From contig OY997591.1 in NCBI GenBank assembly GCA_963921825.1, positions 49,311,825 to 49,375,824 on the forward strand: a stretch of DNA of 64,000 nt, given 5' to 3'. Positions within the stretch are counted from its first letter, which is position 1. Each line of letters opens with the position of its first letter. The translations under genes and the position numbers were made by a program. This stretch comes from Erodium maritimum (lineage: Eukaryota > Streptophyta > Magnoliopsida > Geraniales > Geraniaceae). This document shows positions 7,118-56,409 of this stretch, in pieces. The notes beneath the pieces are model-generated. The model was given only the letters and a program-made list of their open reading frames with translations, searched no databases and was not told where the DNA came from.

Positions 7118-10110
7118 TGTCACGCCCCAATTTCAATAAAACCGAACTCGGGACGCGAACGTTTAAAAAGATACAACACTTGAAACCTGTTTTGAATAAA
7201 CACTTTGAAACATCATTTGTTCAACAAAATAGTATTTACAGCTTAAAACATGTCCCAACAAGTGGACAAAAGTATGGTATCCGTCGCTAGACTCAAAATA
7301 AACCCAGAATCCCGCTCCTAGCTCTTCAAGCTTCAAAAGCTCACCTAGTCCAACCTGCGATCAGTACCTGTAGGAAAAGCAGCTAGGGGTGAGCGTTCGC
7401 TCACCACCACGGATAACAGACTGACCACGGCATAATTAGCAGACAATGCCGGTAACACCCACAACAAACTCAACTCCGGGGATCACTGTCCCCAACTCAA
7501 GCACTTCGACTGACAAACACCCACGGTGACCTTCCTCGAACGACTCAACACTCAAACACATAAGTAGACCCGACACAACGATTGACAACCTCTTCCCAAG
7601 ACTCAAAAGACCACCACGCAACACCCAAGATCACAAAGGATCGCACACCAAAACAAGATCACAAAGGATCACACACCAAACAAGATCACAAAGGATCACA
7701 CACCAAACAAGATCACAAAGGATCGCATACCAGCTGCTCAGTAACCAATCTCTGTCCCTCGCCCTTTCCGATCCCAGTCGGGCCAGGCGGTCGACCTGTC
7801 TCAGGCACTCATGGCCTCCCAAGACACACCAACAGTAAAACACGGACTCAACAGCCTCACAGGCACCCACGGCCTCCCAAGACACACCGACAGTAAAACA
7901 CGGACTCAACAGCCCCACAGGCACTCACGGCCTCCCAAGACACACTGACAGTAACTCACGGGCTCAACAACCCCACGGGCACTCACGGCCACTCAAACCA
8001 CCAACAGCAAAGACACGGGTTCACAACCCCACGGGCACTCATGGCCACCCAAAACACCAAAGGTAAAGACACGGGTTCAACGACCCCACGGGCACTCATG
8101 GCCACCCAAAACTCGACAATAATACACGCTCGCAACTTACCGAGACTCTAACTCGTAAGCCAGCTAAGAATGCTTGCAACCCCCCGAGATTCTAACTCGG
8201 TCAGGCCAGCCAAAGACACCAACCTTAGTACACGGGCTCTCATGGCCACCCAAGACACAACAGTAATACCCGGGCTCTCACGGCCACCTAAGACACGACA
8301 GTAATACACGGGCTCTCATGGCCACCCAAGACATAATTACACAAACAACCTCTGGCATAACCAATGCCTCCAACAATCCTAATATCAACAGTTTCACAAT
8401 CAACCTCCGGGCATGGTCATATGCCTCCAGTACTCCTAACATCGATAAGTTCACAATCAACCTCCGGGCATGGTCATATGCCTCCAGTAATTCTAATAAC
8501 GCTAAGTTCTCTGATCCTACGACACTACTAAGTGTCACATGCATTTCCAATATTTTCTACGTTCCCGTATCATGCATTTCTAATGTTCGATAACCTACTC
8601 AACCCACGACACCCCGGTGTCACATGCAATTCTACAGTTAACTTTCCCTAGTCAGGGCCGAGATCCGGCTACTTTTCCCTACCTCGTGCGTGTTCTTCAA
8701 AAGTTCCCAAATAAGCCACGACGTGATCTCCGTCACTCGCCTAGCTTTCCTTGGCCCCGGTCCGCAGCACGATCTAAAAGAACATAATTTAAAGGCACTT
8801 AACAACTCGCAGGAATAAACTGAAAATCATTAAACTTGATGCCCAAACTTAGCCCCGACAATGTCGATCACTCCCAAACTCCCCAAATACTCGACATTGT
8901 CGATAAGGGACCCGTAAAGGCCCGATTCGCCCGACATGGCGAATCTGCCCGGGTTTTGTAAATGCCCTTCCGGGGCTCCAAAAATTCCCGTTTTCGTTTC
9001 TACGGTCTTAGAATAATTCAAGGGTCCCAATGTACTTGACCGAATCGAATTCCGACTCCCGAGTCAATTAATTTCCGTTTCAAGTTTCTAAAACCCGTTG
9101 AATGCAACTTTCGCATTTTAATTTTGATTCGGTTGTGGATAAATGGTCCGAGGAACGTTCTAAACCACCCGAACACAAGAACCCGATACCCGGGCATGTG
9201 GGCCCCACACGACCATAATGGGATAAATTCCCTTTTCGCCCCAAAACGTTCCTAACGAACTCCAAACCTCAACCATTCATCTTTAAACCATTCTTAAACA
9301 AAACCCAACCTTAATCAACCCATTTAAACTCAAACCCTAAAATTCAAATGTTCCAAAACGAAAATCGGTTAGATGCTCACCGTAGAGAATGTCGATGTGA
9401 GCTTGAATCTTCTATCGTTGAGACGATCCAACGGTTTGGTCGACGAGAATCACCAAAACCCTAAACTTTCTTCTCCTTTTCTCGCCACCTTCTCTCCTCT
9501 TTCTAACCCCTTTCTCTCTCTTCAACTCCCCCTTTTAGTTTCTGTTTTGCCGAAACCACCTAAACCTTCCCTTTTATTTGTTTTTAAAAAAATCAAATCT
9601 AACTCCCTTATTTACAACTACCACACATTCTTCTTTTTGTTTTGTTCAATGTTACCTAACACCACCACATTGATGACGTGTGGCAAAGTGGGTCCCACAC
9701 CTTTTGGAAAATATCTCCTAAATATTTTCCAATCAGATTCGCGAAATTCGGACGTTTCGGGCCCCGAACGAGCACTTTTTCCAAGAAATTACGAAACTTC
9801 ACGGGGTACAAGGAAACGGCTCAACTAAGACCGCTGCGACGACGCCTAAGCTTTTTGGATCCAAAACGGTCCTCGAATGGACCAAAACGTCGCCCGGTTG
9901 ACTTTTCCAAGCGAAAAGTCAACATTTCCCAAATTGATCAGAAAGTTGCCCTGAGTCCCCCGGAACTCACTTTGGTCGATATCGGGGTCAACTTAAGTCC
10001 GGTATGACCCTCGGGGTCCAATTCCGGTTCAATTCAGTGTCTGCTCAAATTTTTTAAATTTTCCTGTTTTTCGCAGGTTTGACTGGCATTGACCGAGAGT
10101 GGTTATTACA
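7118..10110 (-). mobile_element. Solo LTR of a long-LTR Ty3/gypsy element (Tekay/Del-like)
   Basis: About 3.0 kb with TG...CA ends, minus orientation. It aligns along its length with the LTRs of the two-LTR element at 31747-41155. The flanking 5-mers GAGCT (7113-7117) and GAGCC (10111-10115) agree at four of five positions, fitting a 5-bp TSD that has since changed. No internal region is present, so it is a solo LTR formed by LTR-LTR recombination. Imperfect tandem repeats lie at about 7800-8330, and a conserved palindrome, GTGAGCGTTCGCTCAC, at 7389-7404. It is a fossil with no coding capacity of its own. Confidence 0.85.
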
Positions 10111-16354: not shown

Positions 16355-19300
16355 CATCGTGGATCATCTATCTTAGGGGAAACGACGAAGACCTGGCGAG
16401 GATGGAGGTTGACCGACCTCTAAGGTCTGAATAGGATTTCATGGGACCCATATTTGGTTAGGTGAAGCTTCGGAGGCCAGAGCTCCAGTATAGGGAAAAC
16501 CTGCTCATTCGAAATTTCTCTCTTTATCCAATTGATAATCATAGGATTTGGAATGGTACAAGAGAGGGTGGGACGCTGAACACTAGAAGGGAAATAGATG
16601 GTAAGGGACAAGGATATGAAGCTGATCAGGGACAACGTAAGGATGCTTCATGAATTAGCCTAATTGTTCTAGACCTAAATGAACTAGGCCCATCAGGAGT
16701 AGCTCAGGAACTAGGTGGTATCACTATGATCAAGCAAGGGGAGACAAACACCTTCACCTTTTACCATGAGAGCTTTCGAGGAGAATAGGTTGTTTCTAGG
16801 GGTTTCTCATCTGCTGTTTATTATGTGATACTGAATATACAAAGTTTCCGCTTGACATACTTCTTCATAGTCTTAGTCCAAAAAAAAAATTGTAGCACAC
16901 TTCTTACTTATGGTTTCCATATGAAGGTAGAAAGCTACACAATCGAGTTATGATGATGGAAGCTGGTACTAAGGATGTTTGTACAGTCCTATTGTGCTTC
17001 AATCTAAGGAATCTTAAGGAGGTGAGTATGAGTCTCTTGACTCGTTGGTGGTGGAGGTTTGTTGTGGAGAAGGATTCACTTTGGAACAGGGTTATATGTT
17101 ATAGATTTGCCTGGGATTTATCTGAATGGGATCTTCTAAAATTGGACAAACCAAGAAGCAATTACATCTTCGAGCACATCATGGCGTTGGGTGAGGATAC
17201 TAGATTCAGAAGTTTATTTGAAAATCAGACTATGCATTAGAAGGTAGGTGATGGTGATCGTATCCAATTTTGGAAAGATCATTGGTTTGGGGATTTTGCT
17301 TTGTGATATAAGTTTGAGAGATTATATCTCTTATCAGCTTAGAAACATGACCTAGTTGAAGTAGTATGGGTTGGTGACCATTGGTTCTTCGAATTCAGAC
17401 GGGCCCCGAGGGGGTTGGAGTGGGTCGAGCTGATGTTGTTTGGGGACTTACTGTGGGGGGCTGATTTACGACCTATAATTCTAGGTGAGTTGGAGTGGAC
17501 ACTCATGGACGGGGACTTCAAGGATGGTAATGTATATTGTCTGTTAATGGAGGATGGGAATGAACGTGATGTGGAATAGGCTAGGTGTTTATGGATCGCT
17601 CACTTACCACCCAAGATTTGTGCCTTGTGTGGTTGGCAGGACATCACGATATACTAATTTTTTTTTTCTTGGAGGATCCTGGGTTAAACATCTCTTTGAC
17701 TAGGATGCTATGTGCTTTTTACAATCACATTTTGAGGGCGTGAATCACTTGTTGCTTCACTGTTTTAATTCCTAGGTGGTGTGGACGAAAGTGTATCAAT
17801 GGTGGGGTGTGGAATGGGTGATAACAACCAATATTCCTCAAATTTGGTTCTTTGGAAAGGGTTTGGTAAGAGTCATTGGAGTGTGCAGTGGATGAAGGTT
17901 GGTTTCGTGGTTCTATGGCAAATCTGGTTGTCCCGAAACACTGCACTTTATAAAGGGTTCCAGTTAACAGGCGATGAGATTGTGCTTATAGTTGTGCACT
18001 ATTCGTTCAGTATTCTATGGAATTCGGGTAGCTTGAGGCAGGGTGATGGTTTTCCTGATAGGAAATTGAATCCATGGGAGTTTTTGGGTGTCCGTTGGTT
18101 GCAGCAGAAGAAAAGGGTGTTGTTAATGTCATTTTTTTTGTTGCAGGAAGTGCGATTTCTCAATTATTTTGGGATATGTTTGAGCCCATTAGTGTCACGC
18201 CCCAAATTCAGTAGAACCGAACCCGGGACGCGAACGGTAAAACGATAAAACCTTTTAAATGAATCGCTTAAAACATCGTTTAATTAATCAAAATAATAAT
18301 TTACAACTCAAAAGTACGTCCCAACAAGATGACAAAATACAAGGCGTACGTCGCTAGACTCAAAAGGAAACCCGGACTCCCGCTCCCAGCTCTTCAAGCT
18401 TCGAGAGCTCACTTAGTCCGTCCCGCGACCAGTACCTGTAGGAAAAGCAGCTAGGGGTGAGCGTTCACTCACCACCACGGATAACAGACTGATTACGGCA
18501 TACTTAGCAGAACAATGCCGGTAACACCAACAACAAACCCAACACCGAGGACTACTATCCCCAACTCAAGTAACCCGACTGACACACAACTGTTACTTTC
18601 CCCAACCGACTCAACACTCGGACACGTAATGTAAACCCAACACAACGATTGACGACTTCCTCCAAAGACACGACAGACAACCACGCAACACCCAAGATCA
18701 CTAAGGATCGCACACCAAACAAGATCACAAATGATCGCACTCCAGCTGCTCAGTCCCCCCACGCCCTTTACCGATCCCTGTCAGGTCAGGCGGTCGACCT
18801 GTCGCACTTTTGCCGATCCCTGTCAGGCCAGGCGGTCGACCTGTTGCACTTTTCCCGACACAAAGTCGGATCAGGCTGTCGACCTGTCACCCCCACGCAC
18901 GCGCGGCCAGGACCCCTTTCCTCATGGGCGGGCCCCCTACCCCGTCTGAACATGCAGACGCGTGCGACCACAGGACCCCCGTTTTTATGAAGCGGGCCCC
19001 CAACCTAAGGTAACCACAATCAAAATCACAAGCAAAGTTCAACAAACAGCAACAATACCGGTCTAACACTTCACAGGCACTCATGGCCACCCAAGACACA
19101 CCAAAAGTAACTCACGGGCTCAACAACCCCACGGGCACTCATGGCCTCCCAAGACACACCAACAGTAACTCACGGGCTCAACAAACCCACGGGCACTCAT
19201 GGCCTCCCAAGACACACCAACAGTAACTCACGGGCTCAACAATCCCACGGGCACTCATGGCCTCCCAAGACACACCAACAGTAACTCACGGGCTCAACAA

Positions 19301-21326
19301 CCCCACGGGCACTCATGGCCACCCAAGACACACCGACAATAACTCACGGGCTCAACAACCCCACGGGCACTCATGGCCACCCAAGACACCAACAGTAAAA
19401 ATACGGGCTCTCATGGCCACCCAAGACACAAACAGTAAAGTACGGGCTCTCATGGCCACCACCCAAGACACAAACAGTAAAGTACAGGCTCTCATGGCCA
19501 CCCAAGACACAAACTAAACAATCATCCTCCGGGCATAACCAAATGCCTCCAGTAATTCAAATATCAATAAGTTCACTGCTCCTACGACACTACTAAGTGT
19601 CACATTCATTTCTATTGTTCGATACGTTACCGTATCATACGACACCACCCGGTGTCGCCTGCCTTTCTATTATTCGATAAAATTACTTAACCCACGTCGC
19701 CCAAGTGTCACATGCATTTCTACTATTAACTTTCCCTAGTCAGGGCCGGGATCCAGCTACTTTTCCCTACCTTGTATGTTTTCTCCAAAAGCGCACAAAC
19801 AAGCTCCGGCGTGATCTCGATCACTCGCCTAGCTTTCCCTACCCTCTGTCGGTGGCACGATCTAATAAGAACACAATTTTTAAACACTTTTAAGCTTGCA
19901 GGCATAAACTGAATTTTAATAAACTTGACGCCCAAAAGTAACCCCGACAATGTCGATCACTCCCAAACTTCCCAATTACTCGACATTGTCGATAATGGAC
20001 CCGGAAAAGCCAGATTCGCCCGACATGGCGAATCTGCCCGGGTTTTGAAAACGCCCTTCCGGGGCCCCGAAAATTCCCGTTTTCGTTTCTACGGCCTTAG
20101 AATAATTCAAGGGTTCCTATGCACTCGACGGAATCAATTTCCGACTTCCGAGTCATTTAATTTGCGTTTAAAGTTTCTAAACCCGTCAATTACAACTTTC
20201 ACAATTTAAGTCCAAATTTCGATCCGGGTGTGGATTAATTACTTGGGGAACGTCCTAAACCACCTGAACACGAAAACCCGAGACCCGAGCATGTGGGCCC
20301 CACACGGCCATAATGGGAAAATTTCCTTTTCGCCCCAAAACGTTCCTAACGAACCCCAAACCTCAACCATTCATCTTTAAACCAATTCTAACCAAAACCC
20401 AACCATATTTGAATCATTTAAACTCAAACCCTAAAATTCAAACGTACCAAAACGAGAATCGAATAGGTTCTCACCGTAGAGAATGACGGTGTGAGCTTGA
20501 TTCTTTTATATTTGAGACGATCCAACGGTTTGATCGACGGGAAATCACTAAACTTCCAACACCTCCTTCTCTTTTCTCTTCTTCTTTTAACTCCCCTTTC
20601 TCTCTCCAAAACTCCTTTTTTTTTCCAATATGGCCGAACACCCCTCCATCTTTCATCTTTGTATTTTTTCAAAAACACACACTTTTCCATATTTACAAAA
20701 CTACCATCAACTTTAATTTCCTCTAGCTTTGTTCAAAAAACCTAACACCACCACTTGTGTGACAAGTGGCAAGTGGGTCCAACCCTTTAAACACATATCT
20801 TTGTAGATATTTTTCTGTCAGATTCGCGAAATTCGACCGTCTCAGGCCCTGAACGGGCACTTTTTCCAAGAAATTACGAAACTTCACGGGCTACAAGGAA
20901 ACGGCTCAAATAAGACCGTTGTGATGACGACTAAGCTTTTTGGATCCAAAACGAGCCTCGAATGGACCAAAACGTCGCTCGGTTGACTTTTCCAGCAAAA
21001 AGTCAACCTTTCCCAAATTGGTCAGAAAGTTTCCCTGAGTCCACCGGAACTCACTTTGGTCGATATCGGGGTCAACTTAAGTCCGGTATGACCCTCGGTG
21101 TCAAATTTAGGTTCATTTAAGTGTCTGTCCAAAAATTTTAAATTTTCCTGTTTTTCGCCGATTTGATTGGCGTTGACCGGGAGCGGTTCTTACAATTAGT
21201 GTTTTATGTTGGCCTTGTATTGGTCGGTTGTAGTTTTTGAGGATTTTTCTTGTTTTCATTTCCTTACCCTATTGTTTCACCTTGAAACAAATGACAGCAG
21301 TGAAATCAATTCGCTTATAAAAAAAA
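16355..21326 (+). mobile_element. LINE ORF2 C-terminal region and 3' end, split by a solo LTR
   Basis: Plus strand. 16990-17320 encodes TRWWWRFVVEKDSLW and, after one stop codon, GDGDRIQFWKDHWFGD, the block between reverse transcriptase and zf-RVT in plant LINE ORF2. Weaker matches follow, then VVLWQIWLSRNTALYKG near 17900. The body is interrupted by the solo LTR at 18193-21194 (TSD ATTAG). The LINE 3' UTR resumes at 21195 and ends in CGCTTATAAAAAAAA at 21326. In-frame stops show it is dead. The endonuclease and palm motifs are not seen, and 16355-16940 has no clear similarity. It differs clearly from the RRM-type LINEs elsewhere in the window. Confidence 0.68.
18193..21194 (-). mobile_element. 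Solo LTR, same Tekay/Del-like family
   Basis: 3.0 kb, TG...CA ends, minus orientation, flanked by the perfect 5-bp TSD ATTAG (18188-18192 and 21195-21199). It is collinear with the solo LTR at 7118-10110 and the LTRs at 31747-41155. It carries tandem repeats at about 19070-19500 and the palindrome at 18457-18472. It sits inside a LINE tail, so it is younger than that LINE. Confidence 0.9.
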
Positions 21327-24429: not shown

Positions 24430-24448
24430 TGAGTTTCCTCTTTTATTA
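24430..24448 (+). repeat. 19-bp target-site duplication, left copy
   Basis: TGAGTTTCCTCTTTTATTA, repeated exactly at 26852-26870. The bases outside differ, so the match ends sharply at both sides. Confidence 0.93.
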
Positions 24449-26851
24449 TTTTTTTTGAAACGGGTAACCGGAGACTTTCATTACTACCAAAAGATAATCA
24501 TACAGGATGAGGCGTGACTGCCTCGGGTTCCAGATATTTGTCCGGGCCGACCGTAGCAAGCCCGGCGCTCATGGACCCATAAAAATAGCCCACTTGAAAT
24601 CGTGGGCAACAACTCAAGACAACTCTCTACCATCGTTCCAACATAACGAGGCAAATAATACCAAGTCCCAAAATCCGCAGAAAATAAAATATCCCAACAA
24701 AAACACAAGCAATAACAGAAAACGTAAATAATAGGTGCTGATAATGCAGGCTGCCCCGGACCTCTCAGCAATTGCTGTCTCGGGTCTGTAGGTATAGTCT
24801 GGGGCTGACTCCACCCACCCCTGTTGGGGCAGATCATTCTTCCATCGGAGGCCTCTGTACCTCCGATGCGTCTGCTCTTCCATCCCCCTGGAAAGGTGGG
24901 TACCAGGGCTGCTGCTGGGTAGTCGGATCTCCCTTCTGCCTCTTTCTCTTCGACGGACGTGCATACCTCGAACCACTTCTAGTCTTCAAAGTGGTTATCT
25001 TGCCTTTTCCTCGACTAGGCCCACCTTTCCCTAGGCTCTCCTGGGGGTCTGTCAGGTATCCCCGTGGATCTGTCTCCTTCCCCTCCCTCATCATCGCATT
25101 GTAACCGGGGGCAACTCGGATCACAGGGTCAACAGCGGGGTGGATGTTAGCCAGGTAGTCAGGCTTTGTGTACTTGGGCGACGGTGTGGGTACTCCATGG
25201 CCCCCCTTCCGTATATTGGGTAACCCTTCTCAGTTACCCTTATCCAGGTAGTCAAGCTTCGGGATGCCTGCATCGGACGATTCCGCGCCCATAGTGATTT
25301 CCCTAGACCGAATGAGAGGGTTCATGGATAGATCACTCAGGAGGTACGTGATCGTCGGGTGTGATGCTGGAGGACGTACATTTCAGACCGTTTGCAGCAA
25401 CCGGTCCACATCCAGATCCCTCGAGACCAGGATAGAGCTATCATAGCGAATCTCCTCCCGTCCAATCCCCGGCAGCAAGGTATGGCAGCCTGGTAACCTG
25501 TGTGTCAGCATGCCACACCTGCGACAAAATTCTACCACTCTCTCGTATTGTAGATCAATCACAACAGGGGAATCAATACCTGGGCACCGGAGTCGGGCTC
25601 TGCACCGTAAGGGTCGAGACAACTACATCCGAACCCTCAGCCAGAGGTGCATATCCTCCCGTCGGGCCGTCGGGATTGGGGCTGACATGACTTGCGTGCC
25701 AATCCTGCTCGCAACGAGACCCCGGATGTAGTGATTTATGGCTCCTCCCAGGATATTCTGCGCCCGGACCCCCAAGCTCCACATGATCGAAAATAATCTC
25801 TTCTGCCCGATCGAATCGCCGAAGCGGTTCAAGGAGAAGGGGGTATCCCTAGAAACTCCTGGGGCCCCTATGGCGGATGTCTTCCATGGCTTTGGCTGAT
25901 GGGAAATGGTATCCCGTGACGTCGAGGGACAGAAACTCCACCCTGATCCCCGTCACCTTCCATTTTCGCAGCATCATCGCACAGACGATGTGCTGGTTAT
26001 AGGTCCGATCCCCTACGACCTTCGCTGCTAGGGAGAACTGGTAAGACCCGGTGGTAAAGAGTGGGACTCCTTCGTCCAACACCACTAGCTCGTCGACCTC
26101 ATCCTCCCAGTCCGGGACCAGGGATATACGGCTTGGCTGGGACTCAGGAGCCAACCGCGACGGGCTGTTAACGCTCGGATAGTCAGGTCTAAGGGCATGT
26201 ACACGCTCTGCCGGAGGAAGATATCGAGTCACCACCGGAGAAGGGGGTGGCCGGGGAGAGAGATCAGATCCTGATGGATCTCCCTCGCCGTTGATGTGGA
26301 TCCGGTGTAGGAAGGAAAAGACACCGGAGGATCTGGAGGCACGCCAGCGGCCAGGGACACACTGACGGACCGGGACGCGCCCGACTTGTCCTTCAGATCT
26401 ACAGGGTGCGGCGACATCCGAGGAGAGACTGGGTCCATCCCAAGCAGCGACGGAGGGACGTCGGCGTGTTCATCGTCTCGCTGGGCGGAGACCTCGAGGC
26501 CGTGAGTGACCTCTGCATGTGGGTGGATCTGGCCGGAGATGATCATTTCCGGCTCGTGGAGGCGGTGGATGGGGAGATCCGACATCGGCTGAGCAGAAAT
26601 GGGAAAGGGTGCTGACGGAGAGGCGGCTGTGGCGGTGGTGGTTCTGCAAGTGCAGATGGCCGGGACTTTGACCTCGTGAGGTGGAGGGCGGTTTCACGGC
26701 TAGAGCTCGTTGTGCTGTAGAGGAGAAGGCAGTGGGAGTGATGGTGGTGCTGGGCGTGGTAGTGGACGGACGGAATGAGAAATGGTAGACGGCGGCGGCA
26801 GCGACCCGATTAGGATATGAGAGAACCTCAGCGAGGTGTGCGGAGAGTAGT
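24449..26851 (-). mobile_element. ORF1-only retroposon (DUF4283 + zinc knuckle), complete by its TSD
   Basis: A 2.4-kb minus-strand insertion flanked by a perfect 19-bp TSD, with an A8 tail at its 3' end (T8 at 24449-24456 on the plus strand). These are the marks of L1-type target-primed reverse transcription. The only coding similarity is a DUF4283/CCHC protein (about 26585-24834). There is no room for an endonuclease or reverse transcriptase, so it must have been moved in trans. About 380 bases of 3' UTR precede the tail, ending CCCGTTTCAAAAAAAA, unlike the TGATAAAA ends of the LINEs here, so a different LINE family probably supplied the machinery. The 5' end starts AACTACTCTCCGC on the minus strand and appears complete. 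Confidence 0.85.
24834..26585 (-). pseudogene. DUF4283 / zf-CCHC_4 protein of the ORF1-only retroposon
   Basis: Minus-strand pieces in order are a Pro/Ser-rich leader (26585-26229), a DUF4283-like core (26235-25849, with SLAAKVVGDRTYNQHIV), and a linker ending LWLRVRM followed by a stop. The same frame then continues with RPLRCRARLRC and the zinc knuckle FCRRCGMLTHRLPGC (CX2CX4HX4C, about 25520), and ends in a basic tail (RPSKRKRQKGD near 24955) that looks like a nuclear localisation signal. At least one in-frame stop and frame changes show the copy is dead. The order matches plant LINE ORF1-type nucleic-acid-binding proteins, and the zinc knuckle is intact. Confidence 0.75.
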
Positions 26852-26870
26852 TGAGTTTCCTCTTTTATTA
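26852..26870 (+). repeat. 19-bp target-site duplication, right copy
   Basis: Exact copy of 24430-24448, marking the 5' end of the minus-strand retroposon. Confidence 0.93.
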
Positions 26871-28459
26871 ATGAAACTACAACTCATTTTAAAAATGAAT
26901 GTGTTTCGTTGTACATAGGTTAGGTGGCGACAGCATATTTTAGGAAAATATACTGTAATGGAATGTGGTGAGAGAGCCACTAAATCTATGGAGAGAGATG
27001 ATTTGATGTAATGTTATCATTGTTCTCCTTTCTCCCTTCAGGCCTCCTTTTGGGGAGTAACCTACAAACCCCACTTTCCATCTCTCCTTTCATTTCACTC
27101 GACCCCTTTTCCCATCCATTGTGGCTGAAATGGGGAGAATAACATGGCAAATATTACTCCTATATATATTTTTAATTATTTATAGTTAATAAACAATGCT
27201 TTTTTTGAAAGGGTTAATAAAGTTGTCACAATAATGATATAAGTAGCACCATAGCTTCCATTTAAAAAATAACAGTTATTGAGAATAGCCACCCATGAAA
27301 TAGTTTTATGAAAAACTCTTTCTAATATATGAAAGTGTTCTAGTTTGATTTATCTGTTATCCCACGTTAAAAAAATGACAAAAGTATGTAATATCAAAAT
27401 TCTTTTTGTTCCCTTCTAGAAATGGAGAACTTTAATGGGGAATAATATGCTTACTTGGAGATTAACAATAGGAAAAAGGAATTAGTTATAAAATAGGGAA
27501 ACCAAGAAGTATAGGATTTGATTTAATTAGTAAAGTTCATTAAAACAAAATATTTTAATTAGATTACTTTAGAGCCTGATGATCATTAGGATTTAGGAGC
27601 ATTATCAAATAGATTATTAATTATTTTAATATACATTTAAATATATAATATAGAAGTTTGTGTCTAGATATTCTTGCTAAGCAAAAAAGATATGGATGGT
27701 TTCACACAGCCTTGAGTGACAAAAGGTACACTTTCATACTTTCCACAGCATATTCCCACAAAAATGGTTCCATTAGTATTGGACAAATATTTCCACTAAC
27801 CGGCTCCTTGAACTATTTTGTCTCATCAATGTAATCATGTGGGTCCTTACTCTCTTTGCTAATTCTGTTTTTGGTGGTTCCATTTTAACTTATTCCTAGA
27901 ATCATATTTCGATTATTAATTTATTATAAATTGAAATGAGTATGTCTTTTGCATTTAAGCCATTTTTAAATTAAGAAATAGCTTCGTTAATAGTAAAACA
28001 AAGTCATTACATCGACTATTGACCATAGAATAATAATAATCCAATAACTCTTGGCAACAAACCGATCTAAAAAACTTGTCATAGCAATCAGAATCAAAAC
28101 AAGAAATATAATTAAAACATGAATTAAAACTAAAGTTAGAACAGAAAAAATTCAAAAAGTGCCGACTAGCGAGAACCGCTCAAAGTAGGGCCTAAACGTT
28201 ATTTGGTCTTGCTCTCCAAGGATTCGCTTTGTCAAATGAGCTACCAAACTTGAACTTGACCGGTTAGCTGGGAGTGATGGCTCATCTCAGGGACCCTTCT
28301 CTTGAATGTCATTTGCAGTTAATGCTGGTAGAATATTTTTAGTTTTTTCTCTATTTGTGCCCTCTCTGAATTTACTTAAAAATCAATATATATTTTATTT
28401 TTCTAATTAAAATTATAACTAATAAATAACTGTTCAATATTTATCAAAGAAGTAGAGTA
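26871..28459. other. AT-rich intergenic DNA
   Basis: No frame above 70 codons has recognisable content, and I see no terminal repeats. The direct continuity with 24429 across the retroposon is part of the TSD evidence. Confidence 0.5.
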
Positions 28460-28810: not shown

Positions 28811-28864
28811 TTTAATATTTATCAAGAAAAAGTAACTGTATGTATAGTAACATTTAATATTCTT

Positions 28865-29227
28865 TTTTTTATCAGCGAAAGAAAATTGAATTAAACCTCT
28901 TCTGAGCTAGAAAAGATACAAATAAAAAAACGCACAATCTAGCTATATACTGGGAGAAACACAACAACAAACGAAGCTAAGAAAGAGATCAAGTAACTAA
29001 AAGAAAGCAAAAGAGATGAGGGTGAAGAGTAGCAGGCCTCTGGTGAAAATCACAAAGTGCTTGTGTACTCAAACGCAGTCGACAAAGATGACTTGTGCCT
29101 CAAGTAATACAGAAGCCGCCAACCACGATGTCTTGAGCGTCAAGTAAATGGTGTGGGTTGCAGAAGGGCTTGAGGAAAGTGATGAATTGGTCTTCAAGAA
29201 TTGAAATGTGTAGTTGCAGATAATGAA
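28865..29227 (-). mobile_element. 5'-truncated LINE copy with perfect 17-bp TSD
   Basis: A 363-bp minus-strand insertion flanked by TAACATTTAATATTCTT at 28848-28864 and 29228-29244. Its 3' end (GAGGTTTAATTCAA ... CGCTGATAAAAAA) matches the 3' terminus of the full-length LINE at 31400, so it is a severely 5'-truncated relative holding 3' UTR only. Confidence 0.88.
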
Positions 29228-29244
29228 TAACATTTAATATTCTT

Positions 29245-31384: not shown

Positions 31385-31399
31385 TCGTTCTTAATTGTT
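31385..31399 (+). repeat. 15-bp LINE target-site duplication, 3'-side copy
   Basis: TCGTTCTTAATTGTT, an exact copy of 48351-48365. It defines the ends of the minus-strand LINE although the copies lie 17 kb apart. Confidence 0.92.
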
Positions 31400-33589
31400 T
31401 TTTTTTCAATCAGCAAAACAAATTTAAATTAAACCTCTTTTGAGGTAAAAGAGGAGTTACAACAATTTATCAAACAAAGGAAGCTACCCACCCCAAAACA
31501 GGAAAGGATTACAACAAGGGAATCGACACCAGTTTACATAAAGCTACCCAAAGTTATAGGGTTCCACCCAAAACCAACTGATACAAAAACAAACTTAGGA
31601 AACTTGCCACACAAGTCATGACAAGATTCAAAAATTCAAAAAAGGTAACTGTCTTGCAATCCAAGAAAAGAGGATGTAAAGGTCTTGCTGAGTTTTTTTC
31701 AAGGAAAAAGAGAGCCACTTATAGAACCAACCAAGAGCTTCAAAATTGTAAGAACCGTTCCCAGTCAACGCCAGTCAAATCTACGAAAAACAGCAAAATT
31801 TAAAAAATTTAAGCAGACACTTAAATGAACCCAAACATGACCCCGAGAGTCATACCGGACATAAGTTGACCCCGTTATCGACCAAAGTGAGTTCCGGGGG
31901 ACTCAGGGCAACTTTCTGATCAATTTGGCAAATGTTGACTTTTCGCTGGAAAAGTCAACCGAGTGACGTTTTCGTCCATTCGAGGACCGTTTTGGATCCA
32001 AAAAGCTTAGCCGTCGTCGCAACGGTCTTATTTGAGCAGTTTCCTTGTAGCTTGTGAAGTTTCGTAATTTCTTGGAAAAAGTGCCCGTTCAGGCCCCGAA
32101 ACGGCCGAATTTCGCGAATCTGATTGAAAATATATAGAAGATATTTTCCAAAAAGGTTTGGGACCCACTTGCCACATGTCACCAATGTGGTGGTGTTAGG
32201 TTGTTGGACAAGACAAGAGAAGACTACTTTTAAGTGTTAGTTTTGTAATTAAGTATTAGTTTTGATTTTTAAAACAAAACAAAAGAGGGATGAATTGTTG
32301 ATACACGTTAATTTCAAAAAAAGAGAAGACTTGGAGAGAGAAAGTGGTGTTAGAAAGAAGAGAGAAGGAAGAGAGAAAAAGAGAAGAGGTTGGGGGAATT
32401 TGTGACGTTTCTCGTCGATCAAACCGGTGGATCGTCTCAACGATAAAAGAATCGAGCTCACATCGACATTCCCTACGGTGAGAACCTAACCGATTTTAAT
32501 TTTGGAACGTTTGAATTTTAGGGTTTGAGTTTAAACGGTTTGATTAACGTTGGGTTTTGTTTAAGATTGGTTTAAAGATGAATGGTTGAGGTTTGGGGTT
32601 CGTTAGGAACGTTTTGGGGCAAAAAGGGAATTTTTTCATTATGGCCGTGTGGGGCCCACATGCCCGGGTATCGGGTTTTCGTGTTCGGGTGGTTTAGGAC
32701 GTTCTCCAAGCCGTTAATCCACACCCGGATCGAAATTTGGAATTAAATTGTGAAAGTTGGAATTTCGGGTTTAGAAACTTTAATCGCGAATTAAATCGCT
32801 TGTAAGTCGGAAATTGATTCCGTCGATTGCGTTGGAACCCTTGAATTATTCTAAGACCGTAGAAACGAAAACGGGAATTTTCGGAGCCCCGAAAGGACGT
32901 TTCCAAAACCCGGGCAGATTCGCCGTGTCGGGCGAATCGGGCTTTTCTGAGCCCTTTATCGACAATGTCGAGTAATTGGGAAGTTTGGGAGTGATCGACA
33001 TTGTCGGGGTTGAGTTTGGGCGTTTAATTCTTTAAATTTGGGTTTGGCATGCTTACTTAAAAAGTGTGTAAATTGTAATAATTGTAGACCGCGTCGCCTA
33101 CCGTGGAAAGAGGAGGCTAAGCGGGAAATTTGGAGCATTGTCGGAGAGCGAGCATCGGTTGTGACACGCTTTAAGAGGTAGTGAAAAGTAGCCGGATCTC
33201 GGCCCTGACTAAGGAAAGTTAACAGTAGAATTGCATGTGACACCGGGGTGTCGTGGGTTAAGTGGGTTTATCGAATATTAGAAAGGCATGATACGGGAAC
33301 GTAGTGTCGTAGGAGCAGAGAACTTAGCGTTAGTAGAATTGCTGCAGGCATATGATCATGCCCGGAGGTTGATTGTGAAACTGTTGATATTAGGACTGTT
33401 GGAGGCATTGGTTATGCCGGAGGTTATTTGTGTAATTCGTGTCTTGGGTGGCCATGAGAGCCCGTACTTTATTATTGTGTCTTGGGTGGCTATGAGAGCC
33501 CGTGTTATTATTGTGTCTTGGGTGGCCATGAGAGCCCGTGTTACAGTTGTGTCTTGGGTGGCCATGAGAGCCCGTGTTACTGTTGGTGT

Positions 33590-34110
33590 GTCTTGGGTGG
33601 CCGTGAGTGCCCGTGGGGTTGTTGAGCCCGTGAGTTATGGTTGGTGTGTCTTGGGAGGCCGTGAGTGCCCGTGGGGTTGTTGAGCCCGTGAGTTATGGGT
33701 GGTGTGTCTTGGGTGGCCGTGAGTGCCCGTGGGGTTGTTGAGCCCGAGAGTTATGGTTGGTGTGTCTTGGGAGACCGTGAGTGCCCGTGGGGTTGTTGAG
33801 CCCGTGAGTTATGGTTGGTGTGTCTTGGGAGGCCGTGAGTGCCCGTGGGGTTGTTGAGCCCGTGAGTTATGGTTGGTGTGTCTTGGGAGGCCGTAAGTGC
33901 CCGTGGAGTTGTTGAGCCCGTGAGTTATGGTTGTTGTGTCTTGGGAGGTCGTGAGTGTCTGTGGGGTTGTTGAGCCCATGAGTTATGGTTCGTGTGTCTT
34001 AGGAGGCCGTGAGTGCCCGTGGGGTTGTTGAGCCCGTGAGTAATGGTTGGTGTGTCTTGGGAGGCCGTGAGTGCCCGTGGGTTGTTGAGTCCGTGTTTTA
34101 CCCTTGGTGT
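33590..34110 (+). repeat. 58-bp minisatellite inside the 5' LTR
   Basis: About nine imperfect units containing TGTGTCTTGGGAGGCC and GTTGAGCCCGTGAG. Related arrays lie in the other LTR copies (about 7800-8060, 19070-19390, 39700-40110, 53990-54330). Confidence 0.9.
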
Positions 34111-34231
34111 CTTGGGTGGCCATGAGTGCCTATGGAGTGTTGAACCTGTGATGTTGCTGTTTGTTGAACTTTTCTTGTGATTGTTATTGTGCTTGCCCGA
34201 GGTTAGTGACCCGATAGTGTGTCGGGAAGTA

Positions 34232-34440
34232 GTTCGAGTCCCGGTAGGTTACGAGCATTCTTTGGCTGGCCTGACCAAGTTCGAGTCCCGGTAGGTTACG
34301 AGCATTCTTTGGCTGGCCTAACCAAGTTCGAGTCCCGGTAGGTTACGAGCATTCTTTAGCTGGCCTAACCAAGTTCGAGTCCCGGTAGGTTACGAGCATT
34401 CTTTGGCTGGCCTAACCAAGTTCGAGTCTCGGCAGGTTGT
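34232..34440 (+). repeat. 47-bp minisatellite inside the 5' LTR
   Basis: Between four and five units containing GTTCGAGTCCCGGTAGG and ATTCTTTGGCTGGCC. The 3' LTR array at 40232-40500 has more units, and 54440-54640 holds a more diverged array. Confidence 0.9.
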
Positions 34441-35117
34441 GAGCATGCCCCAATTTCAGTAAACCGAACTCGGGACGCGAACATTTAAAATCACAAAACA
34501 TTTGAAACCTGTTTTGAATAAACACTTTGAAATTACCATTTAGTTAATCAAAAATAATATTTACAACTTAAAATACGTCCCAACAAGTGGACAAAAGTAT
34601 GGTATCCGTCGCTAGACTCAAAATAAACCCAGAAACCCGCTCCTAGCTCTTCAAGCTTCAGAAGCTCACCTAGTCCAACCTGCAACCGCTACCTGTAGGA
34701 AAAGCAGCTAGGGGTGAGCGTTCGCTCACCACCACGGATAACAGACTGACTACGGCATAATTAGCAGACAATGCCAGTAACACCAGCAATAAACTCAACA
34801 CCGGGGAAACTATCCCCAATCCAAGTACTCCGACTGACACACGCCCACTGTTACCTTCCTTGACCAACTCAACACTCTGACACGTAAAGTAGACCCGACA
34901 CAACGATCACGACCTCTTCCAAGGACTCAAGGACCACCACGCAAAACCCAAGATCACAAAGGATCGCACACCAAGCAAGATCACAAAGGATCGCATACCA
35001 GCTGCCCAGTAACCTCCCTCAGCAGACTCAACCTCAAACTCGTAATGTAAACCCGGCACAACCATTGACGACCTCCTCCAAAGACACGAACACGGATCAG
35101 GCTAGCCAATGACAACT

Positions 35118-37831: not shown

Positions 37832-37844
37832 AAGGGGGGTAGAT
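37832..37844 (+). other. Polypurine tract
   Basis: AAGGGGGGTAGAT directly before the 3' LTR start TGTAAG, preceded by GGACGAAATTC, as usual in Tekay/Del elements. Confidence 0.8.
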
Positions 37845-40800
37845 TGTAAGAACCGCTCCCGGTCAACGCCAGTCAAATCTGCGAAAAACAGGAAAATTTA
37901 AAAAATTTAAGCACACACTTAAATGAACCCAAAAATGACCCCGAGGGTCATACCGGACATAAGTTGACCCCGTTATCGACCAAAGTGATTTCCGGGGGAC
38001 TCAGGGCAACTTTCTGATCAATTTGGGAAATGCTGACTTTTCGCTGGAAAAGTCAACGGAGCGACGTTTTGGTCCATTCGAGGACCGTTTTGGATCCAAA
38101 AAGCTTAGTCGTCGTCGCAACGGTCTTATTTGAGCCGTTTCCTTGTGGCTCGTGAAGTTTCGTAATTTCTTGTAAAAAGTGCCCGTTCAGGCCTCGAAAC
38201 GGCCGAATTTCGCGAATCTGATTAGAAAATATCTAGAAGATATTTTCCAAAAAGGTGTGGGACCCACTTGCCACATGTCACCAATGTGGTGGTGTTAGGT
38301 TGTTGGAAAAGACAAGAGAAGACTACTTTTAAGTGTTAGTTTTGTAATTAAGTATTAGTTTTGATTTTTAAAACAAAACAAAAGAGGGATGAATTGTTGA
38401 TACACGTTAATTTCAAAACAAGAGAAGACTTGGAGAGAGAAAGTGGTGTTAAAAAGAAGAGAGAAGGAAGAGAGAAAAAGAGAAGAGGTTGGGGGAATTT
38501 GTGACGTTTCTCGTCGATCAAACCGGTGGATCGTCTCAACGATAAAAGAATCGAGCTCACATCGACATTCCCTACGGTGAGAACCTAACCGATTTTAATT
38601 TTGGAACGTTTGAATTTTAGGGTTTGAGTTTAAACGATTTGATTAAGGTTGGGTTTTGTTTATGATTGGTTTAAAGATGAATGGTTGAGGTTTGGGGTTC
38701 GTTAGGAACGTTTTGGGGCAAAAAGGGAATTTTTCCATTATGGCCGTGTGGGGCCCACATGCCCGGGTATCGGGTTTTCATGTTCGGGTGTTTTAGGACG
38801 TTCTCCAAGTCGTTAATCCACACCCGGATCGAAATATGGAATTAAATTTCGGGTTTAGAAACTTTAATCGCGAATTAAATCGCTCGGAAGTCGGAAATTG
38901 ATTCCGTCAATTGCGTTGGAACCCTTGAATTATTCTAAGACCGTAGAAATGAAAACCGGAATTTTCGGAGCCCCGGAAGGGCGTTTCCTAAACCCGGGCA
39001 GATTCGCCTTGTCGGGCGAATCGGGCTTTTCCGAGCCCTTTATCGACAATGTCGAGTAATTGGGAAGTTTGGGAGTGATCGACATTGTCGAGGTTGAGTT
39101 TGGGCGTTTAATTCTTTAAATTCGGGTTTGGCATTCTTACTTAAAAAGTGTGTAAACTGTAATAATTGTAGACCGCGTCGCCTACCGTGGAAAGAGGAGG
39201 CTAAGCGGGAAATTTGGAGCATTGTCGGAGAGCGAGCATCGGTTGTGACACGCTTCAAGAGGTAGTGAAAAGTAGCCCGATCTCGGCCCTGACTAAGGAA
39301 AGTTAACAGTAGAATTGCATGTGACACCGGGGTGTCGTGGGTTAAGTAGGTTTATCTAATATTAGAAAGGCATGATACGGGAACGTAGCGAATATTGGAA
39401 ATGCGTGTGACACTTAGTAGTGTCGTAGGAGTAGAGAACTTAGCGTTAGTAGAATTACTGGAGGCATATGACCATGCCCGGAGGTTGATTGTGAAACTGT
39501 TGATATTAGAACTGTTGGAGGCATTGGTTATGCCGGAGGTTATTTGTGTAATTCGTGTCTTGGGTGGCCATGAGAGCCCGTACTTTATTATTGTGTCTTG
39601 GGTGGCTATGAGAGCTCGTGTTATTATTGTGTCTTGGGTGGCCATGAGAGCCCGTGTTATTGTTGTGTCTTGGGTGGCCATGAGAGCTCGTGTTACTGTT
39701 GGTGTGTCTTGCGTGGCCGTGAGTGCCCGTGGGGTTGTTGAGCCCGTGAGTTATGGTTGGTGTGTCTTGGGAGGCCGTGAGTGCACGTGGGGTTGTTGAG
39801 CCCGTGAGTTATGGGTGGTGTGTCTTGGGTGGCCATGAGTGCCCGTGGGTTTGTTGAGCCCGTGAGTTATGGTTGGTGTGTCTTGGGAGGCCGTGAGTGA
39901 TCGTGGGGTTGTTGAGCCCGTGAGTTATGGTTGGTGTGTGTTGGGAGGCCGCGAGTGCCCGTGGGGTTGTTGAGCCCGTGAGTTATGGTTGGTGTGTCTT
40001 GGGAGGCCGTGAGTGCCCGTGGGGTTATTGAGCCCGTGAGTAATAGTTGGTGTGTCTTGGGAGGCCGTGAGTGCCCGTGGGTTGTTGAGTCCGTGTTTTA
40101 CCGTTGGTGTCTTGGGTGGCCATGAGTGCCTGTGGAGTGTTGAACCTGTGATGTTGCTGTTTGTTGAACTTTTCTTGTGATTGTGATTGTGCTTGCCCGA
40201 GGTTAGTGACCCGATTGTGTGTCGGGAAGTAGTTCGAGTCCCGGTAAGTTACGAGCATTCTTTGGCTGGCCTAACCAAGTTCGAGTCCCGGTAGGTTACG
40301 AGCATTCTTTGGCTGGCCTAACCAAGTTCGAGTCCCGGTAGGTTACGAGCATTCTTTAGGTGGCCTAAACAAGTTCGAGTCCCGGTAGGTTATGAGCATT
40401 CTTTGGCTGGCCTAACCAAGTTCGAGTCCCGGTAGGTTACCATCATTCTTTGGCTGGCCTAACCAAGTTCGAGTCTCGGCAGGTTGTGAGCATTCTTTGG
40501 CTAGCCTGATCCGTGTTCGTGTCTTTGGAGGAGGTCGTCAATGGTTGTGTCGGGTTTACATTACGAGTTTGAGGTTGAGTCTGGTGAGGGAGGTTACTGG
40601 GCAGCTGGTATGTGATCTTGCTTGGTGTGCGATCCTTTGTGATCTTGGGTTTTGCGTGGTGGTCCTTGAGTCCTTGGAAGAGGTCGTGATCGTTGTGTCT
40701 GGTCTACTTTACGTGTCAGAGTGTTGAGTTGGTCAAGGAAGGTAACAGTGGGCGTGTGTCAGTCGGAGTACTTGGGTTGGGGATAGTTTCCCCGGTGTTG

Positions 40801-41155
40801 AGTTTATTGTTGGTGTTACCGGCATTGTCTGCTAATTATGCCGTAGTCAGTCTGTTATCCGTGGTGGTGAGCGAACGCTCACCCCTTGCTGCTTTTCCTA
40901 CAGGTACCGGTCGCAGGTTGGACTAGGTGAGCTTCTGAAGCTTGAAGAGCTAGGAGCGGGTTTCTGGGTTTATTTTGAGTCTAGCGACGGATACCATACT
41001 TTTGTCCTTTTGTTGGGACGTATTTTAAGTTGTAAATATTATTTTTTATTAACTAAATGGTAATTTCAAAGTGTTTATTCAAAATAGGTTTCAAATGTTT
41101 GGTGATTTTAAATGTTCGCGTCCTGAGTTTGGTTTACTGAAATTGGGGCGTGACA
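37845..41155 (+). repeat. 3' LTR of the Tekay-like element
   Basis: 3.31 kb, TG...CA. Same orientation as the solo LTR at 52066-55265 and opposite to those at 7118 and 18193. The conserved palindrome GTGAGCGAACGCTCAC is at 40867-40882. Confidence 0.9.
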
Positions 41156-41886: not shown

Positions 41887-44800
41887 TCAAAAAGATGGAG
41901 CTAAAGATGACCAGGCAGTGAATAATAATTTTGGGTTCTTTAGGATGATCCAACTAATACCCCACCAATGTAATACCAGACTCCAAACTCTCCAAGCTCT
42001 AAAGCAATGCATTAATGTATGAGAAGCATCTTCCAAGTCATCATTGCAGAAGGGACAAAGAATTCCTTGAAGGGATAATTGCAATCCTCTTGATTCAAGA
42101 AAGCATCTAGTAGGGATGGCTTCCAAACAAGCAAGCCAGCAAAAGGTTGTGATTTTAGGAGGTATACCTGGGATCCACAGAGCTTTGGTCCAAGAAGCAT
42201 TAACAGATAGGGCAGAGGTTTGGTTGTCAAGTAGTGAGTATAACATTTTAACTGAAAACCCCTTTGGATCACCTGACCAGACAAGAAGATCCTTCTCATG
42301 AGAAAGGGAGATGCCTTCTAAAATCACCAGTAGAGCATTCCAATCAGATTCAGCTCTTCCCCTTGGTACACTTCTAAAATTTAGCTCCCATACTCCATCA
42401 ATCCAAGCTTCAGCTACAAGCAATTTTTTGTTATCTGCAAGGGAGAATAGCCTGGGAAAAAGAAACTTGAGAGGTTGATCCCCCCACCAAATGTCACACT
42501 AGAAAAGCATTCTAGTTCCTTCACCCAATTTCCAACCCAGACCTCTAATGCCAGAAAAATTCTGAAAGATAGGATCAGCATTGATAACTAGTACATGGTT
42601 CATAAAACTTGAAGATCCAATTTCAAAAAAAGTAGAAAGATCCCATTATGTTGTTGACCATCCATATTTACTGCAGATCACCCTCTTCTAAAGTGAATTT
42701 GAGTCCAGTGCAAATCTCCACCACCACTTGTCAAGAAGAGCTGGATTCATTTTAGCCAAATTTTTTATACCAAGGCCTCCCTCTATTTTTGCTTTACACA
42801 CATTGTTCCATTTAACTTTACAGAAAGTTCTTGCTTTAGATGATCCATGCCACAGAAACCTCCTTTGCCAGGATTCCATTTGTCTCAATACACCTTTGGG
42901 GGCTTTTATTATGGAGAAGAAGTACAATGGCAGTGCACTTAGAGTAGACTTAATGAGTGTGATTCTTCCTCCTAGTGATAGAAGCTTAGCCTGCCTAAGT
43001 CCTAGAGCAGCTTTGAAATTGCCTATAATTGAATCTTGGTTTTGATTTTCCTTAGATTTGCTCCAAAGGAAAGCCTAAGTACTTGGTAGGCAAATTTCCT
43101 TCTGAAAAACCCAAAATCACTAAGAGGACATGTCTCTCCTCCTCTTCCAAGTTGAAGAAAATAGCTGGGGATTTATCATAGTTAACTGATAAACCAGTAG
43201 CTAAATTGAACATAGTTAAAGCAAATTTGAGGCACAAGGCAGCAGTTTCTGAAGCTTGAATGAAGAAAATAGTGTCATCTGCAAATTGCAGATGAGAAAT
43301 GGTTGGGCCAATATCTTGAAATTTTATACCTTTGAAGAGGTCTTGAAGTAGTTCTGCTTTCATTACTTGGTTTAAGCCTTCAGCTACTAGAGCAAACAGG
43401 AGAGGAGATAAAGCACATCATTGCCTAAGCCCTCTTGACAATTTAAAGTCAAGACTGCGGGAGCCATTGATCAACACTGAGACATATGCATTCAAGCATG
43501 AAATTATCCAGAGCCTCCATAGAGAGCCAAAGCCCATTCTAGTCAGTAATTTGAGAATGTAATTCCAATTGACCTTATCAAAAGCTTTTTCAAAATCAGC
43601 TTTGAAGAGAATAGCTTTCTGCTTGCTTATCTTTAGAAAATCAACAACCTCTAAAGCAATTAGAATTCCATCTATAATTTGCCTGCCTTTGAGACTTGTA
43701 GATAATACCCCCCCCCCCCCCCCCCCCCCCCCCCAAGAAGTTTATAACCTGTTTAAGACTTGTAGATAATAGTTTGGACAAAATTTTGTATGAGCCTCCC
43801 ATCATGCTTATTGGCCTGTAATCATCAAATGTTAGAGGAGCATCAATTTTTGGAATCAAAGTCAGAAAAGATGAGTGCAAGCCTTTTCCAAGTTGACCAG
43901 TATGGTAGAAGCAATATAGAAATTTCATCAATTCTTCTTTGATTATAGGCCAGCATAAATTTGAGAGTGAAACCATCTGGCCATGTTGCTTTTTCAGCTC
44001 TACAAGCCATAATTGCTTGAAGGGTTTCATCTTCAGAGAAGGGTCTCTCTAGCCATTGAGCTTGTTGAATTGATAGTGTCTGAAATGTTAATTCATCAAG
44101 AGAAACATTTGAGATTGGACCTTCAGAGAATCTGAGAGCAAAATGTTCTGCTGCAGCAAGTTTGATTTCTGGAGGAGATGAAAGCAACTAATCTTTATAC
44201 CAAATGTCGCTTATGTTTTTTGTGGCTCCCTTGAAATTTGTCACTCTATGAAAATATTTAGAGCCTTTGTCCCCATCATCAAACCACCTCTTCCTGGCCT
44301 TTTGACTCCATAACTTTGACAACAATTTATATTTCTGTATTAGTGTAGCTTTAAGTTCACCTCTCTTAGAGCATTCATCAGGAAGGAGAGGCCTTAACTC
44401 CACCAGAGAATCCATATCATCTATTGCCTTGCTTAGCTGAGCAATGAGGGTTTCCAAATGACCAAACACTTGAACATTCCAGACTTTAAGATCATCTTTC
44501 AAAAGTTCAAGCTTCATCCATAGCACATAATAAGGTTGACCAAAGATTTGATAAGAGGCCCAAAAATTTTCCACTGCTGCAAAGAATCTAGAGTCTTCAG
44601 TCCAAATATTTAGGAACTTGAATGGCCTAGGCCCCCAGTCCATAACATTGTGAAAAGGTATTATAGGCCTGTGATATGAGATTGATCTGGAGAGGCAGAC
44701 CTGAGTAGGAGAATTGAATTTTTCCATGAACACTTGAGAAATAAGATACATATCTATTCTGGAAGCTCTTGATTGCTGACCAAACCAAGTGAATTTGCCT

Positions 44801-45331
44801 CCATTTAGAGGGAGATTGAGTAGACCCGGATTCTATATAAATTGTTGAAAATTCTGCATGTCAGACCCATCAGCTCTTTGTGAGGATCTCTCTTGAATGG
44901 AACTAACAGTGTTTGAAATCTCCTCCTAGTAATAAGAGAGTGTCTGTAGGAAGGGCCTTAATCATTTCCTCCAATTTGAGCCATAAAGCCTCCCTTCGAT
45001 GAGGTGTTGAAGGGGCATAAACATTGATAATGCAGCAAAACTTTTGGCTAGAGAGCATACTACCAAGCCAGAGTAGGGCACCTTCTTCCTCTATAGAATG
45101 AGAGAAGGAGAAATCTCTTTTTTTTCCACATTGAGTGTCCACAACATCATAATGGCAAGACTCTCATCTCCAAGAAAGGCCACAGGTCCTAAGAAAATTA
45201 GCAGGCATATGATCCATTTTGGACTCTTGAATCATGATGAAACTTGGGGCATGCGTGCTCAGTAAGGAACTGAAACATCTCCTCTTCTGTTGAGAGGAGA
45301 TCCCTCTCACATTCCATGAGAGGAATTTCAT
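41887..45331 (-). pseudogene. LINE ORF2: endonuclease, reverse transcriptase, zf-RVT (decayed)
   Basis: Starts MKFLSWNVRGIS at 45331. Endonuclease pieces: NVYAPSTPHRREALW, LLGGDF and, on the next piece, SRIDMYLIS. Reverse transcriptase pieces: KATWPDGFTL (family KAPGPDGFT), LTFDDYRPISMMGGSYKI, FKADFEKAFDKV, and the catalytic LQFADDTIFF at about 43280, which is intact. Then KYLGFPL, the WWWRFALDSNSL block (42720) and the zinc-binding CPFCNDDLEDASHTLMHC (about 42035-42090). It is spread over several frames, so inactive. A 27-base poly(C) run (poly(G) in this orientation) replaces about ten residues between LKQVINFL and GRQIIDG. Close relative of the plus-strand LINE at 56400-59855. Confidence 0.88.
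43708..43734 (+). repeat. Poly(C) tract, 27 bases
   Basis: Lies in the reverse transcriptase region of the minus-strand LINE. The 15-mer GACTTGTAGATAATA occurs on both sides (43693-43707 and 43757-43771). Confidence 0.95.
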
Positions 45332-45336
45332 AATAA

Positions 45337-50609: not shown

Positions 50610-50842
50610 GCATGAGAGAACCAACTCCCTCTAGCAGACTCAAAGGTAAGGCTCGGCTTAGGACTTCATCCCATCTTCATCTTCAAAATCGCTTTCTTCA
50701 GCTTGGTTCTACCTCAGCGATCCAGCCAGACCAGACTTCCAACCCTTCCTAGCATCTTCATCTTCGTCATCACATCTTACAGCCATCCCAACCAGTCATC
50801 TCTGCCTCAGTTCCAGATTCAGAACCTCAACAAAGAACATGG

Positions 50843-51739
50843 TTGACACTCCAAGAACTTTGTGGAGGCTTTGATGCTTCTCCACTTCAGGAACAGGGGA
50901 AGCAAGATTCTTCATCAATCGGCCCTCTACCAGGTTTTGAGCATGTCCAGAAGAAAGTTTACAACCCACCTGCAATAAGAAGAGGAAGAAGAACAATTGT
51001 TCATTCTCCATCTCCCTCAGACAAAACCCATACCAAACTACTTGATGGCCAAAAGTTGTTATATGACAAGTATTTTAGGACTGTGAACTCGGATACTGAC
51101 TCTACACCCTCACTTCCTACCAGACCTGAAGGGCTCATTCAACCAAGATGGAGAAATTCAAAGGTTCAATCACAAACTCTCTCAGAGACCGAGGTTAAGA
51201 CTCATCCCAAGAACAAGTCCAGCCATCTATCTGACTTTTTTGTGTATGTCCACAATATCCCTCCCAAAGCTTCAGAAGACTGGCTCTCTAATCTCTTCTT
51301 TGATATTAAAGGTGTTTCTTGGACTCATATAGTTGCAAAAAGAAGCAAGCTAGTAAAATGCTATGGTTTCTACTATTTTCACAAGCTTTCTCAGTTGCAG
51401 GAAGCTATTTTACTTTTCAATGGCTACTCAATCAATGGTCATCAACTCTATGTCACACAGGCCAGGAACATACCTCTTAGGCAGCAACCGATTCCAAGCT
51501 CTTCAAACTACCCTCATAATCTATCACACAACTTTCTCTGGAAGCAGAAAGCTGAGTTGCAACCTCCAAGAGTCCAAGGACCAGTGGTCACAAAGCAATC
51601 TCATTTACTGAAGAACTCCCATTTGGCCATTGCTCTTGGAAATTATAGTGCAGAAGACATTAGAAGAGATCTAATGATGGAGGGTGTCTGTGATCTTGAA
51701 ATCAAGTCCCTGGGCATCAATCTTATTCTCCTGCACTAG
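50843..51739 (+). pseudogene. LINE ORF1 N-terminal part with RRM
   Basis: A 298-codon frame. Residues 60-75 carry HTKLLDGQKLLYDKYF, shared with the other LINE's ORF1. Residues 127-206 form an RRM: FFVYVHNIPPKAS as first strand, CYGFYYFHK as RNP1-like strand, and NGYSINGHQLYVTQAR at the end. After the stop at 51739 the following sequence still reads like ORF1 in other frames (GGRFTRVTIQGIPYQ near 51860), so the stop is a lesion. ORF1 then continues beyond the LTR insertion at 52066. Confidence 0.82.
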
Positions 51740-52065
51740 CTTGATCCACTTGTGGGAAAAGAATTTTTGAAAGATAATGGAGCATGGTTAAACAATTGGC
51801 TCTCTTTCATTCCTGACAAGCAACATCTGTGTACCCAAGGAGGGAGGTTCACTAGGGTTACAATTCAAGGCATCCCATATCAAGGCTAGTGTGAAGAGTC
51901 TTTTGCTGCTGCTTTAAGTGGTTTTGGTTCTTTTGTTTACTCTCATCCAATTACATCTGCTTGTACATATTTAGAGAGGGCTTATGTTCTTGTTCATACT
52001 AACATCTTTAAACCTTTCTCCTCTGAGGCCAATTTGTTTCTTGGAACAAAACCTTACACTGTTTG

Positions 52066-56393: not shown

Positions 56394-56409
56394 TTAAGTC
56401 ATAAAGCTC

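Follow-up and report, generated by a model that had tools for sequence, protein, structure and literature searches.

A decayed ORF1-type retroposed insert in Erodium maritimum as a possible HAL1-like half-LINE retrocopy

Within the window, the 64-kb stretch of Erodium maritimum DNA analyzed here, the insert at 24430-26870 bears the signature of an L1-type LINE insertion, and the copy is now a pseudogene. We tentatively favor the reading, at a little short of even confidence, that it is a decayed, trans-mobilized, HAL1-like half-LINE retrocopy. This reading is supported by a repeat that abuts an A8 tail, by a zinc knuckle with a weak DUF4283 match just upstream, by an undetected ORF2, by L1-type activity in the genome and by precedents in other systems; it is weakened by the finding of a single copy in the window, by a 3' end unmatched there, by a DUF4283 score under its cut-off and by the occurrence of the same domains in plant genes and pseudogenes.

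The boundaries of the insert are defined by a perfect direct repeat, TGAGTTTCCTCTTTTATTA, identical at 19 of 19 positions between 24430-24448 and 26852-26870; no 12-mer of this repeat recurs on either strand of the rest of the window. The 2,403 bp between the two copies carry a T8 run on the plus strand (24449-24456), which is the A8 tail of the insert and places the element on the minus strand, reading from 26851 to 24449. The 5' copy of the target-site duplication accordingly lies at 26852-26870 and the 3' copy (sense TAATAAAAGAGGAAACTCA) at 24430-24448. When the two ~230-bp insert ends were subjected to dinucleotide shuffling (n = 300), the longest word common to both was 11 and no shuffle reached 19. 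Random pairs of window stretches ~2.4 kb apart shared 19 bases in 2 of 400 cases, both of them the repeat TGAGTTTCCTCTTTTATTA itself, with the next best at 12. Furthermore, a scan for retroposon marks (T- or A-runs of at least 7 with an exact flanking repeat of at least 11 within 9 kb) made this insert and another at 28848-29244 stand out, two more matches of 11 and 12 bp probably being due to chance. The insert also differs from its flanks in composition (56% vs 40% G+C). L1-type LINEs that insert by target-primed reverse transcription (TPRT) usually leave a target-site duplication and an A tail, and both marks are present here, as a 19/19-bp flanking duplication and an adjoining 3' poly(A) of eight residues. 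The sequence-only reading, which had described 19 identical bases at both ends, an A8 tail and 2.4 kb between, was thus confirmed in its account of the ends.

Frame analysis divides the minus-strand insert into a 266-bp 5' leader (26586-26851), a broken ORF1 of 1,752 bp (24834-26585, with its ATG at 26585 and a presumed natural stop at 24834-24836) and a 377-bp 3' untranslated region (24457-24833) that ends AATGAAAGTCTCCGGTTACCCGTTTC before the tail. Within ORF1, a zinc knuckle (zf-CCHC_4, PF14392; motif C-x2-C-x4-H-x4-C) at 25482-25622 scored 33.4 bits, over the cut-off of 27. DUF4283 (PF14111) scored 19.6 bits (E = 8e-4) at 25680-26046, below its cut-off of 27.2 and only in a read-through of the broken frame across one stop and one frame change; this match spans residues 23-117 of the 122-residue read-through piece, and the Pfam scan did not see the domain in single frames of the insert. 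The zinc knuckle sits downstream of this weak DUF4283 region, an order typical of DUF4283-type plant LINE ORF1, and the DUF4283 naming of the protein is probably correct. AlphaFold returned a mean pLDDT of only 33 for the DUF4283 region, and a PDB sequence search gave a single chance match (E 0.71). A Pfam match to MRP-S24 (E 0.07-0.1, under its cut-off) was likewise attributed to chance.

The DUF4283/CCHC protein proposed from the letters of the sequence stands in its zinc knuckle, and its DUF4283 domain gives a below-threshold match in read-through; it does not stand as an intact protein. Four in-frame stops precede the presumed natural stop (25849-25851, 25623-25625, 25383-25385 and 25230-25232), and two frame changes are placed approximately, near 26230 and near 25750, with ORF1 as read passing from insert frame 2 to frame 1 and back to frame 2. 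In the frames as chosen, G+C by codon position in the three ORF1 pieces was 0.70/0.48/0.72, 0.65/0.43/0.62 and 0.58/0.50/0.59, so that G+C is lowest at the second position in every piece, as coding DNA predicts, weakly so in the last. With about six breaks in its frame, the copy is unable to make an ORF1 protein or to package itself, and the suggestion that the element packages itself with its own ORF1 protein is not supported for 24430-26870. If all four stops arose after insertion, substitution models imply a body divergence of about 9-11%, and the chance of the duplication staying perfect while the frame gained those stops ranges from 0.05 under equal rates to 0.17 when transitions at C and G are raised eightfold. 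This low chance gives a weak, model-dependent hint that part of the damage is older than the move, such that the source may have been at least partly broken before moving.

No endonuclease or reverse transcriptase (RT) domain was detected in the three sense frames of the insert (Pfam, E <= 1), the 3' untranslated region included. Upon tblastn comparison of 17 protein segments from the LINE regions of the window with the insert, nine matches appeared at E <= 1, ranging from 0.15 to 0.71, none of them credible; in the corresponding control, from which rows of at least 95% identity (self matches) were excluded, 13 of the 17 segments matched the window's other LINE at E <= 1e-5 (best 5e-66). The earlier statement that only a DUF4283/CCHC protein lies inside is upheld within these searches as regards endonuclease and RT. 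The ORF2 with endonuclease and RT that marks an autonomous plant L1 LINE was not found in the insert, and its content, an ORF1-type frame (broken) with ORF2 undetected, is that of a HAL1-like element. With ORF2 undetected, another LINE is the most likely source of the enzymes, and the RNA accordingly probably carried ORF1 alone, a situation like that of HAL1. Movement in trans, as first proposed, is thereby supported by the combination of the repeat, the A tail and ORF1-type content without a detected ORF2.

Other routes to an ORF2-less insert were weighed against the same data. It is quite improbable that a full-length LINE inserted and later lost ORF2 via internal deletion: this would leave the two outer ends as they are observed, in a sequence that is indeed decayed, but the deletion would have had to take out all detectable ORF2 yet spare the end of ORF1 and a 3' end. 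We also regard as improbable a single copying event, without later spread, of a LINE transcript from which ORF2 had been spliced out or internally deleted. Human genomes do contain spliced L1 copies (SpIREs), and the available portion of PMC5860796 calls them evolutionary dead ends; the splicing described there, however, falls in the 5'UTR/ORF1 and not across ORF2, and the present case would require a junction just past the ORF1 stop, next to which the searches detected no remnant of ORF2. An origin of the 3' end by premature polyadenylation within ORF2 is disfavored, as no endonuclease start was detected past the ORF1 stop.

The main rival to the HAL1-like reading, unlikely in our estimate, is a processed pseudogene, in which the mRNA of a stand-alone DUF4283/zinc-knuckle gene, either a host gene or one derived from a LINE, was retroposed once by an L1-type LINE. 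Such an event would leave the same hallmarks of repeat and tail, and AATGAA, a possible variant polyadenylation signal, begins 26 nt before the tail. In the sections of PMC7935947 available, DUF4283 is listed as enriched in pseudogenes relative to functional loci in three of five plant genomes and zf-CCHC_4 in two of five (retrocopy status is unstated there), and the parental loci of bean have an entry for DUF4283 as well; since both domains thus occur among annotated plant genes and pseudogenes, a gene origin is possible. Against this, DUF4283 in poplar lies in a LINE ORF1, and the accessible text of PMC11288735 describes this domain as conserved among the LINEs of diverse plants.

The 3' end and the body of the insert were also compared with potential helpers and relatives. 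A second copy of the 2,403-bp insert was not found in the window (blastn, E <= 1), the search returning itself and three short matches inside the insert, and the 3' end was not matched anywhere in the window, including its LINEs and the retroposon at 28848-29244. A conserved 3' hairpin has been reported for one monocot L1 lineage (excerpt of PMC3747384). Here, the last 52 nt folded no better than shuffled sequences (z -0.55; 49/200 as good) and the last 132 nt somewhat better (z -2.02; 7/200 as good), a result drawn from a single sequence. A tail-like string at 27201-27218 (3 mismatches; equaled by 2/100 shuffles) was rejected, having no flanking duplication of at least 9 bp. Searches of non-plant collections, in which misses say little, were uniformly negative: the 79-residue zinc-knuckle piece gave 21 pattern matches among viral contigs and 592 among prokaryote genome contigs, none confirmed in either, a zinc-knuckle codon pattern gave no match in either set, 17 bases of the insert 3' end found no match among viral contigs, and tblastn found none among plasmids. 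PF14111 matched neither the phage lambda record nor any of 14 control genomes, and this comparison is hence uninformative.

Two decayed LINEs with RRM-type ORF1 lie elsewhere in the window, at 41890-48030 (minus) and 50753-59850 (plus). In the minus-strand LINE, RRM (19.4 of 20.7 bits, 47144-47569) and RT (29.1 of 29.6 bits, 43055-43417) fall just under their cut-offs and zf-RVT (41890-42498) exceeds its own; in the plus-strand LINE, RRM (50753-51736), endonuclease (56641-57336) and RT (57721-58374) are all over their cut-offs. The second retroposed insert, at 28848-29244 (minus), has a body of about 365 bp and a 17-bp repeat in which the last two bases of one copy lie inside an A8 run, allowing it to be read as 15 bp + A8 or as 17 bp + A6. 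Over its final 53 bases this insert matches, at 82%, an A-tailed end on the minus strand (31399-31453), and the two are probably 5'-truncated 3' ends of an L1-type LINE. Together, the two RRM-type LINEs and the 28848-29244 retroposon document L1-type activity in this genome. Neither Rfam families nor tRNA genes were found in the window, and thus no tRNA-type SINE is flagged.

The window additionally holds five related repeat copies (7118-10110, 18193-21194, 31744-35016, 37843-41155 and 52065-55265). The first two lie on the strand opposite to the others, and the final portion of the third is inverted. Each copy contains tandem units of about 58 bp, three of them have 47-bp units as well, and the copies are possibly LTR-type elements. 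One of them interrupts the plus-strand LINE at about 52066-55265.

On the HAL1-like reading, we infer a polyadenylated source RNA that held only the leader, the DUF4283/zinc-knuckle ORF1 and the 3' untranslated region, with no ORF2. The endonuclease-RT of a helper L1-type LINE, acting in trans, would have reverse transcribed this RNA intermediate at an AT-rich site that had been nicked, an event expected to yield the 19-bp target-site duplication and the A8 tail. Such a route is consistent with a proposal that plant L1s recognize poly(A) and hence mobilize other RNAs (as given in the excerpt of PMC3747384), and with mobilization of an ORF1-only RNA in cell culture, as cited in the portion of a review available (PMC4859970). 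It is doubtful, though conceivable, that the insert belongs to a family of plant half-LINEs coding only for a DUF4283/zinc-knuckle ORF1, independent of HAL1 in origin and borrowing RT from a different L1 lineage, for example an RRM-type one. Among the literature matches listed, no report of plant half-LINEs was found, which is no proof of absence. Should copies with the same ends exist, HAL1-like elements would have evolved in plants in parallel to mammals, a modest novelty; were the family real, it could be tested why an ORF1-only RNA is mobilized and whether ORF1 aids its own RNA. Taken as a single decayed copy, the insert would represent one more trans-mobilized retrocopy of a plant genome.

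Among known systems, the likeness is to HAL1 (half-L1) of mammals, for which the primary paper is reportedly that of Bao and Jurka from 2010. As stated in the available part of PMC5753468, HAL1 derives from L1, is non-autonomous, codes for ORF1p alone and has arisen several times, and it is likely mobilized by L1 machinery (the same part and an excerpt of PMC4161310). The distinct non-autonomous strategy that the sequence-only reading had envisaged, therefore, already has a known counterpart (PMC5753468, in the part available). The insert shares with HAL1 the ORF1-only content of a non-autonomous, L1-type element, being likewise without a detected ORF2, whereas it differs in having a zinc-knuckle/DUF4283-like ORF1 in place of mammalian ORF1p, in residing in a plant and in being known here from one broken copy. 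Celine, an L1-type LINE of poplar, resembles the insert in its DUF4283 ORF1 (1,617 bp vs 1,752 bp), short 3' untranslated region, poly(A) tail and target-site duplications of 10-30 bp, but differs by a second ORF that encodes endonuclease and RT, neither of which was detected in the insert (accessible text of PMC11288735). Finally, the processed pseudogenes of flowering plants, in the excerpted account of PMC3747384, have in common with the insert an A tail, a target-site duplication and mobilization in trans by L1 LINEs thought to recognize poly(A); in contrast to them, the insert has coding content that looks like LINE ORF1 and not like that of an ordinary host gene.
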